Below, in pieces: positions 17,441-25,574 of a stretch of DNA of 55,982 nt. Position 1 is the first letter of the stretch, and each line of letters starts with the position of its first letter. The stretch spans positions 172,329-228,310 of the forward strand of contig AOIR01000056.1 of the NCBI GenBank assembly GCA_000337115.1. Reading direction: 5' to 3'. The notes below the pieces were generated by a model. That model was not told the DNA's origin. It searched no databases and saw only the letters and a program-made list of their open reading frames with translations. The position numbers and the translations under genes are program-made. Source of the DNA: Natrinema thermotolerans DSM 11552 (GTDB lineage: Archaea > Halobacteriota > Halobacteria > Halobacteriales > Natrialbaceae).

Positions 17441-19408
17441 TCAGTCCTCGTCCGCGCCCGCACCCGAACCGTCCTCGTCCGCACTCGAACCGTCTTCGAC
17501 CCGCTGCTCGCGGACCGTGATCCCCTTGCGGCCCAGGTGCTGGAGCTGTTTCCGGGCGAAGTCCTCCTCGCGGCTGCCCCGCGTCGCGAGGACGTAGACG
17601 AGCGCGCCGCCGGCGGGCCGCATCGTCCGGCCGGCCCGCTGGGTCCCCTGCCGGCGCGAGCCGCCCAGTCCGGAGGCGACGATGGCCAGATCGGCCGTCG
17701 GCAGGTCGATCCCCTCGTCGCCGACCCGCGAGATCAGCAACAGATCGCGCTCGTCGCGTCGGAACTCCTCGAGCAGCCGCCGGCGCTCGTGGTGGGGCGT
17801 CTCCCCGCTGAGGAAGGGGACGTCAAGCGCCGCGGAGAGTTCCCGGCCCTGCTCGAGGTAATCGACGAAGACGATCGCCTTCGCCTCGGGATGGGCCGAC
17901 AGCAGGTACCGCACCTCGTCGATCTTGCCCCGATTGCGGGCGGCGATGCGGTACTTCTCCTGACCCTCGGCCGACGCGTAGGCGTTTTGCTGTTCGTCGT
18001 CGCCCCACGGCACGTAGCGGATCTCGAGTTCGGGTTCGGCCACGAAGCCGGCGTCGAACAGCGCCTCCCAGTCGGTGCCGATCGGCGGGCCGACCAGCGT
18101 GAAGATCTCGGTCTGGCGGTCGTCCTCCCGAATCGGCGACGCCGACAGGCCCAGCCGGTGTTTGGACTGCAGGTGCGTACTCCGCCGGTAGACGTCCGAG
18201 GGGACGTGCTGGCACTCGTCGAAGATCACCAGTCCCCACTCGCGGTCGTCGAACAGCGAGCGGTGCCGGTCCATTCCCGCGATCTGGTAGGTCGCGATCG
18301 TCACCGGACGGACGTTCTTCTGCCCGCCGTGGTACTGGCCGATCTGATGGGGCTCGAGCGAGGTGTACTCGACGATCGTGTCGGCCCACTGCTGGGCGAG
18401 GTCGCGGCTCGGGACGAGGACGAGGGTCTCGCCCTCGACGTGGGCCATCGCGCCCATCGCCGCGACGGTCTTCCCGCTGCCGGGCGGGCCGACGAAGACG
18501 CCTTCGCCGGCCTCGGCGAAGCGGTCGACCCACGTCCGCTGGTAGTCCCGCAGCGACACCGTCAGCTCGATCGCTAGCTCCTCGCCGGACTCGAGGTCGC
18601 GGTGGTCTTGCACCGGGTAGCCGGCCTCGTAGAGTATCCGCTTGATCGCCGCTTCCGCGCCCTCCCGGACCCAGTCTTCCGTCTCGGAGATCGGCGCGTG
18701 GACGTGTTCCTCGTCGAGTTTCTGGCGGGCGACGTTGCCCATGATCTCGGGGGTCTGGGCCTCGAGGACGGTGTAGCCGTCCTCGTGGGTGGTCAGCCGG
18801 AACTGGTGGGCCCGATCCCACTGGCTGTGGACCCAGTCCTCTAAGTCCTCGGAGCGCTGGCCGAGCGCCTGTCGCATCGTCCGGGCGAGGTCGTCGAAGC
18901 TGTCGTGGGGCGTACTCCAGACGTCCTCGGGCCGGACGACGTAGCGGTATCCCTGGTCGCCGTTGGCGTCGGCCAGGTGGGCGAACTGGGCCAATTGTGC
19001 GCGCGTGAACTGGTCCGGCCGGTCGACGACGATTTCCCGGCGCTTCGGAAAGACGACCACGCGTTCGCGGTCCGTGAGGTCCTCGAGTTCCGTCGGATAC
19101 CAGACCACGGGGTCGGTCGACACCGAGAGCCGCTCTATGTCGCCTCCCTCGGCCAGCGCCGCGAGCCGGTCGCTGGCGTCCTCGTGGGGAATCTCGAGCG
19201 CGCGGGCGACGGCCGCGGCGGTCAGGACGGGCCGCCCCTCACGCTGGCTAGCGTCGTGGAAGTCGGCGATGGTGAACGCGTCGTCACCGACCGCCCCTTC
19301 GTCGGCGTCGGTCGCCGCGCCGTCGCCGGCAGTCGACGCGGCGTCGGCCTGCTCGTCAGGGTCGCTTCGCTGCTCATCGGAGGGCGTCGCAGAACGTTCG
19401 TCGGTCAC
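17441..19408 (-). CDS. XPB/Rad25-like SF2 DNA helicase
   Basis: A protein of about 655 residues, a superfamily 2 DEAD/DEAH helicase of the XPB type. Walker A is FVGPPGSGKTVAAMGAM, motif II reads FDECQHVPSDVYRR where many relatives have DEVH, motif III is LGLSASPIRED, and motifs V-VI are SRVGDEGIDLP and QRAGRTMRPAGG. The acidic N-terminal tail precedes a winged-helix-like region (ALEIPHEDASDRLAALAEGG). An in-frame GTG at 19489 would add 27 residues that are hydrophobic and unlike a haloarchaeal N-terminus, so GTG 19408 (MTDERSATPSDEQ) is preferred; this choice is not certain. The role is DNA unwinding in repair or transcription. It follows the HerA-like gene on the same strand map but is upstream in transcription. 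Confidence 0.88.
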   Translation of the reverse strand: MTDERSATPSDEQRSDPDEQADAASTAGDGAATDADEGAVGDDAFTIADFHDASQREGRPVLTAAAVARALEIPHEDASDRLAALAEGGDIERLSVSTDPVVWYPTELEDLTDRERVVVFPKRREIVVDRPDQFTRAQLAQFAHLADANGDQGYRYVVRPEDVWSTPHDSFDDLARTMRQALGQRSEDLEDWVHSQWDRAHQFRLTTHEDGYTVLEAQTPEIMGNVARQKLDEEHVHAPISETEDWVREGAEAAIKRILYEAGYPVQDHRDLESGEELAIELTVSLRDYQRTWVDRFAEAGEGVFVGPPGSGKTVAAMGAMAHVEGETLVLVPSRDLAQQWADTIVEYTSLEPHQIGQYHGGQKNVRPVTIATYQIAGMDRHRSLFDDREWGLVIFDECQHVPSDVYRRSTHLQSKHRLGLSASPIREDDRQTEIFTLVGPPIGTDWEALFDAGFVAEPELEIRYVPWGDDEQQNAYASAEGQEKYRIAARNRGKIDEVRYLLSAHPEAKAIVFVDYLEQGRELSAALDVPFLSGETPHHERRRLLEEFRRDERDLLLISRVGDEGIDLPTADLAIVASGLGGSRRQGTQRAGRTMRPAGGALVYVLATRGSREEDFARKQLQHLGRKGITVREQRVEDGSSADEDGSGAGADED

Positions 19409-19541
19409 TGCCCGATTTAACGGCGGTGCGGATAAACCGATTTCGTTCGCGGGTACCGGTCGCTCGAGGCCGGCGGCTCTCTGGGACACTCCGGCCGCGA
19501 GCCCGGATAGCTATATCTGACTGGGCACTGTCGAATGGAGC

Positions 19542-19718
19542 ATGTACCGCGCGATCCTCCCCGAGGGACAGATCGAGTGCGACCGGTACGACCACACGGA
19601 CACGGGCGTCGAACTCTACAACGACGACGAGCAGTTCATCGCGTTCGTTCCCTACGACAACCTGCACGCGCTGGTCGACGAGGCGTTCTACGGCGAGAAC
19701 GACCGCTCGGTTATGTAG
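19542..19718 (+). CDS. Small conserved-looking haloarchaeal protein, 58 residues
   Basis: This 58-residue ORF starts MYRAILPEGQIECDRYDH and ends FYGENDRSVM. It has haloarchaeal composition, with regular acidic residues and a compact beta-rich pattern (GVELYNDDEQFIAFVPYDNL), and no membrane segment. A TATA box CTATATC at 19511-19517 lies about 25 nt upstream, which supports a leaderless mRNA. Its stop overlaps the 3' end of the convergent TFB gene by eight bases. I recognise the style of a short Halobacteria-only family but cannot name it. The function is unknown. Confidence 0.7.
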   Translation: MYRAILPEGQIECDRYDHTDTGVELYNDDEQFIAFVPYDNLHALVDEAFYGENDRSVM

Positions 19719-20670
19719 CCGGCTGCTGATCGATCGCCTCGAGTTGCTCCCGGTACCGGTTCCGGACCGTGACGACGGTCGTCTGGGCGGTGTCGGCGAC
19801 GGCCCGCTGCGGGATGGTCTCGTCACAGAGCAGGCCAGCGGCGTAGATGGCCGCGGCCGCGAACCCGGTCGGCGACTTCCCCGAGTGCAGGCCCTGCTCG
19901 GTCGTCCGGTCGATGATCTCGACGGCCTTGGTCTCGACGTCCGTCCCGACGTCGAGTTCCGAACAGAACCGCGGGACGAACTGGCGGGGGTTCGTCGGCT
20001 CCAAGTTGATGCCCAGTTCGTCCGCGATGTACCGGTAGGTCCGACCGATCTCCCGTTGCTCGACGCGTGACACGGCGGTTACCTCCTCGAGGCTCCGGGG
20101 GATGTCCTCCTTCCGACAGGCGGTGTACAGCGAGGCGGTCGCGACGCCCTCGATCGAGCGCCCACGGATGAGGTCCTGCTCGAGCGCCTGCCGGTAGATG
20201 ACACTCGCCGTCTCCTTGACCGGCTTGGGGACGCCCAGCGCGCTGACCATCCGATCGATCTCCGAGAGGGCGTACTTGAGGTTGCGTTCCCCGGCGTTTT
20301 TCGTTCGGATCCGTTCCTGCCAGACCCGCAGTCGATGGAGCTGGCCGTGTTTGTCCGCGGACATCGAGTGCCCGTTGGCGTCCTTGTTTCGCCAGTCGAT
20401 GGTCGTCGTCAGCCCCCGATCGTGCATCGACTGGGTCAAGGGCGCGCCGACCCGGGAGAGTTCGTCGTGTTCCTGTGCGTTGAACGCCCGCCATTCGGGC
20501 CCGTAATCGATGGGATCTGCGTTCAGGACGAGCCCACATTCCTCACAGACACGCTCTCCCCGATCGGGATCGTGTACGATCGTGTCGGTCTCACAGTCGG
20601 GACACAGACCAGCCTCGACCTGCTCGGATTGTGATTCGTCGCTGGCGTGATCGATGATAGACCGCGTCAT
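19711..20670 (-). CDS. tfb: Transcription initiation factor IIB
   Basis: A 319-residue basal transcription factor that binds the TBP-TATA complex and the BRE and recruits RNA polymerase. The zinc ribbon uses C23, C26, C42 and C45 (LCPDCETDT and VCEECGLVL). The B-finger/linker follows with WRAFNAQEHDELSRVGAP, and two cyclin folds cover about 120-210 and 215-310 (GRSIEGVATASLYTACR and KSPTGFAAAAIYAAGLL). An in-frame extension to 20772 is arginine-rich and not part of the family. A TTACAG box 28 nt before the ATG at 20670 supports this start. Halobacteria carry several TFBs with different promoter preferences; which one this is cannot be told. Confidence 0.97.
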   Translation of the reverse strand: MTRSIIDHASDESQSEQVEAGLCPDCETDTIVHDPDRGERVCEECGLVLNADPIDYGPEWRAFNAQEHDELSRVGAPLTQSMHDRGLTTTIDWRNKDANGHSMSADKHGQLHRLRVWQERIRTKNAGERNLKYALSEIDRMVSALGVPKPVKETASVIYRQALEQDLIRGRSIEGVATASLYTACRKEDIPRSLEEVTAVSRVEQREIGRTYRYIADELGINLEPTNPRQFVPRFCSELDVGTDVETKAVEIIDRTTEQGLHSGKSPTGFAAAAIYAAGLLCDETIPQRAVADTAQTTVVTVRNRYREQLEAIDQQPAT

Positions 20671-20697
20671 CAGTAGTCGATCGAAACCGTGCCGGCA

Positions 20698-20703
20698 CTG
20701 TAA
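20698..20703 (-). promoter_or_regulatory. TATA-like box of tfb
   Basis: TTACAG on the minus strand ends 28 nt before the ATG at 20670. Confidence 0.4.
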
Positions 20704-20857
20704 GGGGTTCACATGGTTTCGACGGAAACACCGACTTACCGTTCCCTCCCGGAGATTCGAAGCGAAAAGCAAAGAGAAAGGACCCGACCATCGACTGTCC
20801 GCGAGCGAACAGCCCCGATAGTCGAGTCGAAACCGTGTCCCATCGGTCGTGTCCGGG

Positions 20858-20884
20858 CGAAACGACCGACTGTCGGTCGTTTCG
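20858..20884. repeat. Perfect 27-bp palindrome upstream of tfb
   Basis: Arm CGAAACGACCGAC (20858-20870), one central T, then its exact reverse complement GTCGGTCGTTTCG (20872-20884). It lies about 190 bp upstream of the tfb start in a gene-free region, so it is more likely an operator or binding site than a terminator. Confidence 0.7.
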
Positions 20885-21251
20885 ACCCACCATGACCAAT
20901 GACCACATGCAACAAGAAACGCCCCGATCGTTTCGGCGAATCGCCGACGTAAATCACCCCTTCATTCCGTAAACTGCTCTTTCGTGTGTGAACTGTCGCT
21001 CGATTTTATATCGGTCCCAGCGGACGTTCGGTACCAGTGCCGTGTCCCGCTCTACCCCACCACCGCACGGTCGTCGTTCCTTCCACCCCTTACTCGCCCG
21101 TACGTCGTCGATATATGCACGCAATCGCCGGATACGGTCCGGACTCGACAGCCGTCGTCATTGCTCGTCTCACCCTCGAGGAGCCGCCGCTATCGGTCGG
21201 TCGAGAAGTCGATCCATACCTCCTTTGCAGACGGTGCGAAACGTAGTCGTG

Positions 21252-21258
21252 TTTAAGA
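21252..21258 (+). promoter_or_regulatory. TATA box of DUF7344 transcript
   Basis: TTTAAGA ends 27 nt before a GTG at 21285 that opens a leader ORF, and 161 nt before the DUF7344 start. Confidence 0.45.
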
Positions 21259-21284
21259 GTATCTCTGTTGGTGTTCAACCTGGT

Positions 21285-21419
21285 GTGTCAAACGTGATTT
21301 CGACCCGCCGTTCGAACGTACAGCGGTCGTCGTCGAGTCGATACGCCGGTGATCCGGCGTTCCGGAGTCAGGGGGCTGCAAGCTCGAATGGGGCCGATAC
21401 GACTGGGGGGAGTCGGTGA
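21285..21419 (+). other. Possible leader ORF, 44 residues (GTG start)
   Basis: The GTG lies 27 nt after TTTAAGA. The frame (starts MSNVISTRRSNVQ, ends GADTTGGSR) stops with a TGA that shares one base with the next ATG (TGATG). An SD-like GGAG sits 8 nt before that ATG. The peptide is rich in S, R and G and matches nothing known to me. Confidence 0.4.
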
Positions 21420-22012
21420 TGTCCTCGATCGATACGTCGTTGCCCGACGAGATCGCATCGGTCGCCGACGACGAGGGTGAACGCCTCTCGAAGGACGTCA
21501 TTTTCGAACTATTAAAGAACCGCAGACGGCGGGAAGTCCTCACGTACTTGCTGGAAGCCGACGAAACGGTCACCCTCGGCGAACTCGCCGAGCAGATCGC
21601 GGCCTGGGAGAACGACACCGATATCAACGCGCTCAGCTCCGATCAGCGAAAACGGGTCTACGTCGCCCTCTATCAGACCCACCTGCCGAAGATGGACGAC
21701 GCTGGCATCGTCGAGTACGATCAGGACCGCGGGTTGATCTCGCTGTCGGACAATGCCGACCTGCTGATGATGTATCTCGATACCGAGACCCATCGACAGG
21801 ACCGCTGGGACCGGTGGTACGCCGCCCTCAGTGTGGTCGGTGTTGCCGTCCTCGCTGCGGCGTCTCTCGGCCTTCCCGTGCTTGCTGCCGTCCCGATGAC
21901 CGCGCTCGCCGCCGTCGTCGTCGCCGCGTTCTGTTGTCTCTCCGGTGCCCACCTCGTCCGGAATCGCCATCAGGAGCGCAACGTCGACGGCAAACTCTCC
22001 CGGATCGAGTGA
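21419..22012 (+). CDS. DUF7344-type winged-helix membrane protein
   Basis: A 197-residue protein with a cytoplasmic winged helix and two C-terminal membrane segments. The HTH region (about 25-120) contains LSKDVIFELLKNRRRREVLTYLL split here as LSKDVIFELLKNRRRREVLT, then LGELAEQIAAWEN and LSSDQRKRVYVALYQTHLPKMDDAGIVEYD, which in this family (DUF7344) is the diagnostic block. The two hydrophobic stretches lie at about 139-158 and 161-180, with a short basic tail. A membrane-bound regulator is likely; its signal is unknown. A GTG one codon earlier is possible. It stands alone between the TFB region and the beta-helix gene. Confidence 0.85.
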   Translation: MSSIDTSLPDEIASVADDEGERLSKDVIFELLKNRRRREVLTYLLEADETVTLGELAEQIAAWENDTDINALSSDQRKRVYVALYQTHLPKMDDAGIVEYDQDRGLISLSDNADLLMMYLDTETHRQDRWDRWYAALSVVGVAVLAAASLGLPVLAAVPMTALAAVVVAAFCCLSGAHLVRNRHQERNVDGKLSRIE

Positions 22013-22419: not shown

Positions 22420-24231
22420 TTATTGGTCGCGTGCGTTGTACTGCAGGTCGACCGCTGCGTCGCCGCGCAGTCGGAAATCGTCGAGATCGCCGTCGAACCA
22501 GTAGGCGTCGAGCCAGTTGCCGACCGCGCCGCGGACGGTTCCGTTCTCGACGACGTCCTCGTCGTCGATCGAGGCGTCGCGATAGTCCGATCTGACGACC
22601 GCGCCGTCGACCTCGAACGCGTAGGTCGTCGGCCCGTCGGCGTCGGTGCCGTCGATGACCAGCGCGTGGGGAAGCATCTCGTGATCGTCGTACTCGCTGG
22701 GGTCGATCGGTTCGCCGTCGACCGTGATCGTCGCAGCCCCGTCCGAGAACGTCACGTCGGTTACCGCACCCGAGAACCGGAACGTCTGGGTGCCGTCCGT
22801 GATCGAACTCTGGACGGTCGAACCCGAGACGGTCGTGGCCTCCGCGGCCGGCTCGTCGTCGGCGACGAGTTCGATCGTCCCGTCGACGGTGATCTCGTAG
22901 CTCGTCGCCGTCCCGTCGCCGCTGACCTCGAGAACGTGGGGAAGATCCGAACCGTAGTCGTCGGGGTCGACCTGCTCGCCGTTGACCAGCACGGAGCCGG
23001 GACCGTCGACGGTCAGTTCGGTGAGATCGCCGGCAAAACGGAAGGCGTCTTTCCAGTCGGCGACGCTGCCCTGGACCGCCGAGCCGTCGATTCGGTCCTC
23101 GTCGTCGATCGACGCGCCCGCGGCGGTCGAGCGCTCGAGTTCGCCGTCGACGGTGAACTCGTAGCGCGTCGCGTCCGCCGGACTGCCGTCGACCAGCAGG
23201 AGGTTCGGTAGCCCGTCGCTGTCCGTCTCGCCGGCCGAACCGGCGGTCGGATCACTCGAGCCATCGCTATCGCCCGTCGCGGCTTCCTCGGGCGTCGTCG
23301 GGACGCCGTCGGGGACCGAGAGGTCGGGGTCGCTCGAGACGGTGCTGGCGACGTCGACCGTCGAGCCGCTGGCGCGTTGGATCTCGCCGCGGACGCCGCC
23401 GCTTTGGAAGTCGACGCTGCCGGGCGACCCGTTCGCGCCGGCCACGAGCGCGTAGGGGTAGGGGCCGGCCGCGAAGTGGGAATCGCGGATCGTCACGGTC
23501 CCGCCGTTCCAGACCCAGACGGGGCGGCCGCTGGTTTCGCCGTAGCCGCCGTAACCGGGGCCGTAGTCGGTGTCGTCGTTGTACGCGACGCAGTCGACGA
23601 TCTCGTCGTCGGCGCTGCCACACCGGAACGTGGTGACGCCGTTGTTCTTGCCGAAACAGCGCTCGAAGCGGACGCTGCCGCCGTAGGGCGTATTCGAACA
23701 ATAAAAGCCGTTGTTCGGGAACCCCTGAACGTTGCAGTGCCGGAACGTCACGTCGGCGTCGTTTTCCGGATGCATGAAGACGCCACCGGGGCCGTGAACG
23801 AAACTCGAGCCCTCCTTGGTCGCGCCGTCGCCGAGGTAGACGTTCTCGACGAGAATGTCGCCGACACCGGCCTTGATCGAGATCATAAAGGAATCGCCCC
23901 GGTACAGTCCCTCGAACCCGACGTTTCGGATCGTCGCGTTCGCGCCCTCGACGTAGAGCAGGAAGCCTTCGCCGGTGGTCAGGTCGATCAGTTTGTTCTC
24001 GAAGGTTTCACCGCGGCCGATCCTGATCGTCTGTCCGCGGGCCTCGATGGTCTCGTACTCGTCGCCGGCGGCGGCCGCCGCTCCCGTCAGCGTCGCCGCC
24101 GCCGTCGTCGCACCGGCCAGCTTCATGTACGATCGCCGGTGTAGTAATCCGTTCTTACCGCCGTCGTCGCTCGCCTCCCCGTCCGGGGAAGGGGACGACT
24201 CGCCGTCCGATACCGAAGGGTCGCGTGCCAT
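22420..24231 (-). CDS. Tat-exported beta-helix protein with three C-terminal repeats, copy A
   Basis: A 603-residue secreted protein. An acidic N-terminus (MARDPSVSDGES) leads to a twin-arginine signal HRRSYMKLAGATTAA at about 32-46. A right-handed parallel beta-helix spans about 60-290 (ATIRNVGFEGLYRGD, ILVENVYLGDGATKEG, VTFRHCNVQGFPNNGFYC), as in pectate-lyase-like proteins. A linker PDGVPTTPEEAATGDS follows. The rest is three tandem beta domains of about 80 residues, each with a YEFTVDG-like strand and a late VNGEQVDP or VDGEPIDP motif. No lipobox or C-terminal anchor is seen. It probably binds or cleaves surface polysaccharide. The ATG at 24231 lies 27 nt after TTTATA. An in-frame ATG at 24273 would precede the promoter and is rejected. 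Confidence 0.85.
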   Translation of the reverse strand: MARDPSVSDGESSPSPDGEASDDGGKNGLLHRRSYMKLAGATTAAATLTGAAAAAGDEYETIEARGQTIRIGRGETFENKLIDLTTGEGFLLYVEGANATIRNVGFEGLYRGDSFMISIKAGVGDILVENVYLGDGATKEGSSFVHGPGGVFMHPENDADVTFRHCNVQGFPNNGFYCSNTPYGGSVRFERCFGKNNGVTTFRCGSADDEIVDCVAYNDDTDYGPGYGGYGETSGRPVWVWNGGTVTIRDSHFAAGPYPYALVAGANGSPGSVDFQSGGVRGEIQRASGSTVDVASTVSSDPDLSVPDGVPTTPEEAATGDSDGSSDPTAGSAGETDSDGLPNLLLVDGSPADATRYEFTVDGELERSTAAGASIDDEDRIDGSAVQGSVADWKDAFRFAGDLTELTVDGPGSVLVNGEQVDPDDYGSDLPHVLEVSGDGTATSYEITVDGTIELVADDEPAAEATTVSGSTVQSSITDGTQTFRFSGAVTDVTFSDGAATITVDGEPIDPSEYDDHEMLPHALVIDGTDADGPTTYAFEVDGAVVRSDYRDASIDDEDVVENGTVRGAVGNWLDAYWFDGDLDDFRLRGDAAVDLQYNARDQ

Positions 24232-24257
24232 GCAATCGGGTAATACGAGACTACCTG

Positions 24258-24263
24258 TATAAA
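24258..24263 (-). promoter_or_regulatory. TATA box of beta-helix copy A
   Basis: AAAGTTTATA on the minus strand, with TTTATA ending 27 nt before the ATG. Copies B and C have AAAGTTTATG and AAAGGCTTATG at the same spacing. Confidence 0.65.
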
Positions 24264-24382
24264 CTTTCTCCATCTACTAGCGTAAAATTAACAGACTGTA
24301 ACTACATACAGCACGATTCGTAGAAGATTCGGTGATGTTCCGTGTCGTATTTTACGAAATTCGAAATTCGACATACGGGTTC

Positions 24383-24623: not shown

Positions 24624-25574
24624 TCAGTCCGAACCGCCCGACGCGGCTTCCTCGGGCGAGGTCGGAACGCCGCTGGGAATGACTGGCTCGGGATCAGTCC
24701 CTACGCTGTCACCGAGTTTGACCGTCGAGCCGGCGTGTTCGGCGATGCCGGCCCCGTCGTCGTACTCGGAGTCCGTAACGACGACCTCGGTCGGATTGCC
24801 GTTTGCACCCGCGTCGATGGCGGTGTTCTGTCCGTTCATCTCGATCTGGCAGTCCTCGACCTCGACCGTGCCGGGTGCCCACGCCCAGATCCCGCGGCCG
24901 ACGTAGCCCTCGTTGGTGTCGACGTAGACGCTCGAGTTGGTGACCTTGCTGCCCTCCGTCCCGAGCCGGAAATGCGAGACGTAACAGTTGGCGGCGAAAC
25001 TGCTGTCGATGTGGATCGTGCCGCCGCCCTTGTTGCCGGGCGCGGAGCCGTAGATCGCGTTGTCCGAGAAGTTCTGGATGTTGACGTTCTCGAAGTCGAT
25101 GTGACCGTTGTGGTCCGGGGCGACCCAGAAGGCCGTCTGGCCGTGGCCGTTCGGGTTGGTGTTGCCCGTACTCGCGCCGTCACCGAGGTAGACGTTCTCG
25201 ACGGTGCTGGTGCCGTTGCCCGTATCGGAGATACCGAACGTCGCGGTGCCGGTGCCGGAGGTGTTCTCGCCTTTGAAGCCGACGTTCCGGATCGTCCAGT
25301 CGCTGCTGTGGGCCGTGACGACGATGTCCTGGCCGGTCGTCATGTCGATGAGTTTGTTCTCCCAGGTCTCGCCCTCCTCGAGGGAGATCGTCTGTCCCTG
25401 GGCTTCGATGACCTCGTAGTCGTCCTCGGCCGCGGCCGCGCCGACTCCACCGAGTGCGGTCGTCGCGGTCGCCACCGCAGCGAGCGAGCGCACGTAGTTT
25501 CGGCGGGTTAATCCGCTGTTACGGCCTGTCGTCGGCATAGATTCCGTGTCGGACGTACGGGGGTTCTGCGCCAT
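24624..25574 (-). CDS. Tat-exported beta-helix protein without C-terminal repeats, copy B
   Basis: A 316-residue secreted paralog of copy A. The Tat signal is TRRNYVRSLAAVATATTALG at about 24-43. The beta-helix then runs to about 300 with WTIRNVGFKGENTSG, TSTVENVYLGDGASTG, HIDFENVNIQNFSDNAIYG and GTIHIDSSFAANCYVSHF. The protein ends at IPSGVPTSPEEAASGGSD, the very linker that in copies A and C joins the helix to the three C-terminal repeats. So B is either a natural single-domain form or lost its tail; no remnant of the repeats is seen downstream. The ATG at 25574 lies 27 nt after TTTATG. It is transcribed towards copy A. Confidence 0.85.
   Translation of the reverse strand: MAQNPRTSDTESMPTTGRNSGLTRRNYVRSLAAVATATTALGGVGAAAAEDDYEVIEAQGQTISLEEGETWENKLIDMTTGQDIVVTAHSSDWTIRNVGFKGENTSGTGTATFGISDTGNGTSTVENVYLGDGASTGNTNPNGHGQTAFWVAPDHNGHIDFENVNIQNFSDNAIYGSAPGNKGGGTIHIDSSFAANCYVSHFRLGTEGSKVTNSSVYVDTNEGYVGRGIWAWAPGTVEVEDCQIEMNGQNTAIDAGANGNPTEVVVTDSEYDDGAGIAEHAGSTVKLGDSVGTDPEPVIPSGVPTSPEEAASGGSD

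Follow-up and report, generated by a model that had tools for sequence, protein, structure and literature searches.

A perfect palindrome upstream of a tfb gene in Natrinema thermotolerans is probably the first hairpin of a conserved regulatory RNA in the Natrialbaceae

Small regulatory RNAs and other structured intergenic RNAs of archaea lie between genes, are rich in hairpins, are restricted to particular lineages, and carry a pyrimidine tract at the 3' end. Structured 5' leaders comprise autogenous leaders and riboswitch-like elements. The locus analyzed here, upstream of a gene for the general transcription factor TFB in Natrinema thermotolerans, was compared with both kinds and with the archaeal guide RNAs. 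It shares with archaeal small regulatory RNAs the intergenic site, the hairpins, the lineage restriction, and a tract of pyrimidines where the RNA presumably ends; unlike them, it is defined by covariation in many genomes and has no member in Rfam 15. As in structured 5' leaders, it stands ahead of a single gene and is encoded on the strand of that gene, and a hairpin is followed by a T-rich tract. However, the distance to the gene varies here, a conserved block (P3) intervenes, and the gene encodes a general transcription factor. The small size, structure, and intergenic site are shared with H/ACA and box C/D guide RNAs, but the tfb-upstream RNA has no match to a guide RNA in Rfam. An H/ACA guide was rejected because the ACA after hairpin 1 is not present in every row (GGACACG versus GGAGACG in several rows), and inspection of the RNA by eye revealed no kink-turn or C/D boxes.

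The window, meaning the whole stretch of 55,982 nt that was analyzed, gave no match to the 4227 models of Rfam 15 at the gathering threshold. Between 19000 and 22500, the search up to E 5 returned a sole match of 17.7 bits, located elsewhere at 19184-19219. A known RNA family was rejected on the basis of Rfam 15. A literature search, with most subscription papers outside its coverage, found no description of the RNA, and the accessible parts of PMC2864571 and PMC2121645 contain nothing on it. As a structured intergenic RNA it is of a known kind; the family appears to be new.

The initial annotation had placed the palindrome in a gene-free stretch beside tfb. This was confirmed as a gap of 748 bp between tfb and a divergent gene, with the tfb ATG taken at 20670 on the minus strand and the ATG of its neighbor at 21419 on the plus strand. 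Both bounding genes were assigned by domain search.

19711-20670, minus strand: tfb, general transcription factor TFB of 319 aa, with TFIIB repeats and a zinc ribbon
21419-22012, plus strand: divergent DUF7344 gene

Other features of the neighborhood were recorded. A gene for an XPB/Rad25-type helicase (Pfam ERCC3_RAD25_C; 17441-19489, minus strand) lies just downstream of tfb; the distance between the two genes varies in relatives, and in some the helicase was not seen within reach. An open frame of 58 aa (19542-19718, plus strand), convergent with tfb, is kept in 42 of 44 family loci. On the other side, the proteins encoded at 22420-24273 and 24624-25574, both on the minus strand, look alike by eye and have apparent signal sequences; a Pfam scan of the former gave no match.

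The 27-bp palindrome itself, CGAAACGACCGAC-T-GTCGGTCGTTTCG, was found exactly at 20858-20884, with 13-base arms around a single central T. It is the longest perfect hairpin (loop of at most 6) in the window, where the runners-up have 10-base arms. Across 60 first-order Markov windows of equal length, a single hairpin in total combined arms of 13 or more bases with a loop no longer than 1. Such a hairpin is thus unusual for one window, but about one is expected by chance somewhere in a genome of 3.9 Mb. By itself the palindrome is weak evidence, and it is raised above chance because its pairing is conserved in relatives. A dispersed repeat in many copies had also been considered. The genome-wide search, however, found the full palindrome only once at up to 3 mismatches, and the 13-base arm occurs exactly at only three other sites, so the palindrome is not a dispersed repeat.

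Covariance models were built as a first model (R1) and a family model (R2). Read in the sense of tfb, the predicted RNA comprises HP1, a short HP2, and a long-stemmed HP3, followed by a pyrimidine-rich tract.

20858-20884, minus strand: palindrome, the 13-bp core of hairpin 1 (sequence and genome search)
20763-20906, minus strand (tfb sense): predicted conserved structured RNA of about 145 nt (covariance model; 146.1 bits with R1 and 137.2 bits with R2)
20855-20888, minus strand: hairpin 1 (HP1), GGG-U-(C)-GAAACGACCG ... CGGUCGUUUC-R-CCC, loop length varying among species
20831-20848, minus strand: hairpin 2 (HP2), GACCG-AUGGGACA-CGGUU, loop near-invariant
20781-20828, minus strand: hairpin 3 (HP3), a 13-bp stem of 20828-20816 with 20793-20781 (alignment and consensus fold)
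20760-20780, minus strand: pyrimidine-rich and T-rich tract directly 3' of HP3, a candidate archaeal terminator (base composition)

The pairing was evaluated in two alignments. The genus alignment (A1) was made with MAFFT, was fitted to no structure, and contained 24 of the 29 Natrinema loci; L028, L029, L031, and L037, which differ after HP2, and L032, which has no anchor, were omitted. The family alignment (A4) contained 49 sequences and was fitted to the covariance model, and therefore leans towards the structure. It omits the same five loci, L038, the likely repeats L145, L149, and L153 (of L066, L058, and L053, respectively), and L150, which is from the same genome as L031.

RNAalifold on A1 returned three hairpins with 30 pairs, 13 of which had changes on both sides. 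In this alignment, 94.7% of the cells were paired, compared to 28-45% in slid controls, and 47 double-change cells were counted against 15.8 in shuffled data (0 of 500). A4 gave corresponding values of 92.4% against 33-50%, with 140 double-change cells against 39.6 (0 of 500) and double changes in 20 of 28 pairs. Fitch parsimony on a tree built from the tfb coding DNA counted 69 double compensatory changes over 21 of the 28 pairs; six slid controls, in which gaps reduce the number of cells, gave 2-7. The same count gave 80 one-sided changes that keep the pair and 72 that break it.

The strand was examined through wobble pairs. When read in the tfb direction, the Natrinema loci contained 52 G-U and 10 A-C cells and the family 118 and 22, respectively; HP1 alone contained 53 and 4. 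This excess of G-U over A-C points to transcription in the tfb direction. Folding of the single sequence did not choose the strand, with z scores against shuffles of -6.5 (minus) and -6.1 (plus). The minimum-energy fold of the N. thermotolerans sequence favors an outer stem over HP2. This stem, between the 5' flank (GUG..CAUUGGUC) and the HP2 region, was rejected as a conserved structure: changes on its 5' side break pairs, its 3' side is nearly invariant, and for two of its pairs only 11 of the 24 loci have bases that pair. As a local control, the adjacent conserved 100 nt of 5' flank yielded no consensus fold (energy 0.0) in either the 24 Natrinema loci or 13 other loci.

Both marks of a structured RNA, compensatory changes above the controls and a strand-specific G-U excess, were found. 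Together with the foldless flank, they argue for an RNA. On this comparative evidence, the three-hairpin pairing is maintained by selection and read in the tfb direction; a conserved RNA structure almost certainly exists, and the RNA reading as a whole, whether or not it takes the form of an independent gene, is highly probable. The palindrome is then probably the first hairpin of this RNA, whose likely role is regulatory; a DNA site for a protein or the scar of a mobile element is the less likely reading. The structure is not uniform. L028, L029, L031, L037, and L038, scored afterwards, had 82 of 119 cells paired (69%), suggesting that the fold is degraded or different there.

The distribution of the RNA was determined with R2 in 125 Natrialbaceae genomes, using strict search filters that lose weak matches. 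A match was accepted in 69 genomes, one in each. Matches reaching 33 bits number 67, and every one is located ahead of the same tfb orthologue and on its strand; two further matches, of 29.9 and 30.1 bits, were accepted owing to their position upstream of tfb on its strand. The gap between RNA and tfb was 75-309 nt across the 69. Ten other listed matches in the family (25.5-30.8 bits) lie elsewhere or antisense. The initial annotation had proposed that the palindrome may control tfb. The link to this gene holds for all 67 matches of 33 bits or more, and a role in its control is possible.

The tfb orthologue is present in 112 of the 125 genomes, and 43 of these 112 had no accepted RNA match under the strict filters. 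Among the 29 Natrinema genomes, in which the orthologue is 93-100% identical, only G002 and G024 had no accepted match, and their loci L037 and L032 scored only 23.8 and 14.6 bits where the RNA would be expected. A search with R2 for diverged RNA in the match-less loci gave nothing convincing, e.g., 10.8 bits at E 0.6 just upstream of tfb in L068. Separate folding of such loci gave no clear answer, with a covariation term of -3.9 for four Natronococcus loci plus one Natrialbaceae MAG and of +1.0 for five Natrialba loci. Outside the Natrialbaceae, R1 matched 14 genomes at 21.0-27.1 bits in a search of 293 genomes, and R2 matched 6 genomes at 25.9-30.2 bits in a search of 392 genomes drawn from the order. 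These matches, judged by score alone, were treated as chance, the best of them equaling the weakest accepted ones. By these model searches, the RNA is detected convincingly in the Natrialbaceae only, upstream of the same tfb gene.

The DUF7344 gene is the upstream neighbor in all 44 of the named family loci examined (L040-L083, orthologue identity at least 80%). Its linkage is as constant as that of tfb, and therefore synteny does not decide between a tfb leader and a gene of its own. In Natronorubrum bangense (L057), the DUF7344-RNA-tfb block lies on a record of 213,905 bases titled plasmid. A second conserved block, at 21210-21340 on the plus strand and upstream of the DUF7344 gene, had a conservation of 0.85-0.97 per 10-nt bin in the 24 Natrinema loci, more than most of the 748-bp gap; it is a candidate for the promoter and long leader of that gene.

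Candidate promoters and the T-rich tract, recognized from sequence only, bear on whether the RNA has a promoter and a 3' end of its own. The elements around the RNA are as follows.

20991-21012, minus strand: P1, TATA-like GATATAAAATCG then GACAGTT, at a near-constant distance to the RNA (pattern search)
20891-20995, minus strand: conserved 5' flank without consensus structure, containing CGAAAG, GTTTACG..ATGAA, ATTTAC, CGAAAC, and TTCATGTG; candidate regulatory DNA or 5' part of the RNA (alignment)
20695-20739, minus strand: P3, highly conserved tfb-proximal block GTAAG..GTTTC..CGAAACCATGTGAAC.CCTTACAGTG; candidate tfb promoter

Distances were taken from an anchor pattern that matched 42 of 63 distinct upstream regions. 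The pattern searches located P1 as well as the anchor in 27 loci; the two are 160-164 nt apart in 22 of these, 144 nt in three, and 171 nt in one. In the remaining locus, from N. gelatinilyticum, about 0.8 kb of inserted DNA parts P1 from an intact RNA (132.6 bits). On the tfb side, the distance from anchor to ATG in the 42 loci was 162-191 nt in 25, 233-282 nt in 16, and 395 nt in one. The tract 72-83 nt after the anchor had T+C fractions of 0.86-0.87 and T fractions of 0.42-0.55 in the 24 Natrinema loci, and 0.82-0.83 and 0.46-0.49, respectively, in 13 loci of other genera; this is an average trend that is not evident in every locus, e.g., L072.

P3 is retained also in loci where the RNA was undetected. 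The block around CGAAACCATGTGAAC is highly conserved in the family, yet a genome search allowing 1 mismatch found it nowhere else, which makes P3 a candidate for an unusual, gene-specific promoter-like element. Because the spacing to tfb varies, the P1 distance is near-constant, a pyrimidine tract follows HP3, and P3 is kept even without the RNA, we lean towards an independent small RNA gene over a cis-acting leader of tfb.

The leader is the most serious alternative and has an appreciable, lesser probability. It holds that transcripts from P1 carry HP1-HP3 within a long 5' untranslated region of tfb. In one version, HP3 and the pyrimidine tract would act as an attenuator, and HP2 would bind a regulator, possibly TFB, that sets read-through into tfb. 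The constant location of the 67 matches upstream of tfb on its strand agrees with this explanation, as does the resemblance of HP3 and the following T-rich tract to a termination element. Furthermore, P1 persists at a similar distance in some Natronococcus and Natrialba loci without detected RNA, a pattern compatible with a tfb leader or with an RNA too diverged to be detected. Against the leader, the separate conserved P3 suggests that tfb has its own promoter, and the RNA-to-tfb spacing is free, with the anchor-to-ATG distances spanning 162-395 nt.

The insertion in N. gelatinilyticum also speaks against the leader, since it parts P1 from the RNA, and P1 may therefore not be the RNA promoter. 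The RNA may start nearer HP1; alternatively, the copy in this species may be in the course of being lost. The insertion lies at about 1914-2700 of L047, which is from the same genome as L030. No inverted repeats of at least 14 were found in it, and its ends may resemble those of an element of the IS200/IS605 type.

A palindromic DNA operator, on which a dimeric regulator would control tfb or the DUF7344 gene, was implied by the initial reading of the palindrome, and perfect symmetry in N. thermotolerans at a site between divergent genes would suit it. The relatives, however, do not keep symmetric half-sites. Of the 49 aligned sequences, only those of N. thermotolerans and L010 (G026) have perfect 13-base arms; perfect arms of at least 12 are likewise found in 2 and of at least 10 in 5. 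The relatives have, for example, GAAGCG...CGCTTC or GAAGCG...CGTTTC at this site, with different loop lengths (varying in L023, L066, and L070). All ten consensus HP1 pairs are Watson-Crick in 8 of the 49 sequences, and N. thermotolerans is not among these, having one U-G pair outside the palindrome. The arms change in pairs with G-U far in excess of A-C, which is meaningless for a DNA site, and HP2 and HP3, two more hairpins in the same RNA, covary too. With its symmetry lost, its arms covarying through G-U wobbles, and its loop variable, the operator was rejected as very unlikely. What the alignment shows to be conserved is the pairing of a hairpin, not the palindrome, which is one of the forms that this hairpin takes.

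A small peptide encoded by the stretch, with the structure incidental, is more improbable still: an AUG does occur within HP2, but the length varies among relatives in steps not divisible by three (7 nt inserted in L023, and 1 nt deleted in L014, L015, and L018), one group lacks 11 nt after HP2, and the changes follow the pairing. A mobile element, of which the palindrome would be a remnant or a target site, was also raised by the initial annotation. The frequency of inverted repeats at the ends of such elements and an insertion near the RNA in one relative would suit it, but it was dismissed with near certainty, since the sequence is a single genome copy at the same orthologous place in 69 genomes with base pairing maintained over the family.

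For the independent small RNA, the following course is proposed. Transcription of the RNA would start either near HP1 or farther upstream, at the TATA-like P1, and would end at the pyrimidine tract after HP3, and tfb would use its own proximal promoter P3. HP1 and HP3 may serve as scaffold and stabilizer, and the exposed HP2 loop, AUGGGACA, may provide the functional contact with a protein or a target RNA. Of its eight positions, six are identical in all 49 sequences, and the remaining two are identical in 48 and 47. The search of the genome for a target of the HP2 region established none; the exact 14-base complement was found at the RNA gene only, with three more places at one mismatch. At up to 2 mismatches there were 59 places, compared to 17 for a reversed control, a difference that may reflect base composition.

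In bacteria, 6S RNA controls the initiation machinery. A counterpart in spirit would be an RNA that regulates the transcription machinery of archaea itself, in an autogenous manner or in trans, with TFB or a partner binding the HP2 loop; this extension, drawn by analogy, is improbable in our estimate. If such binding did occur, the RNA linked to the gene of a general transcription factor would control that factor or be loaded onto it.

R2 already finds the RNA in 69 genomes, and it would be a new RNA family for annotation. Haloarchaea have several TFB paralogues, whose division of labor is an open question; the N. thermotolerans genome contains six TFB matches at E of at most 1e-100. An RNA tied to one of these tfb genes in much of the family, strongly covarying and with a near-invariant loop, would offer a defined entry point, open to test, for studying control at the RNA level close to a general transcription factor.
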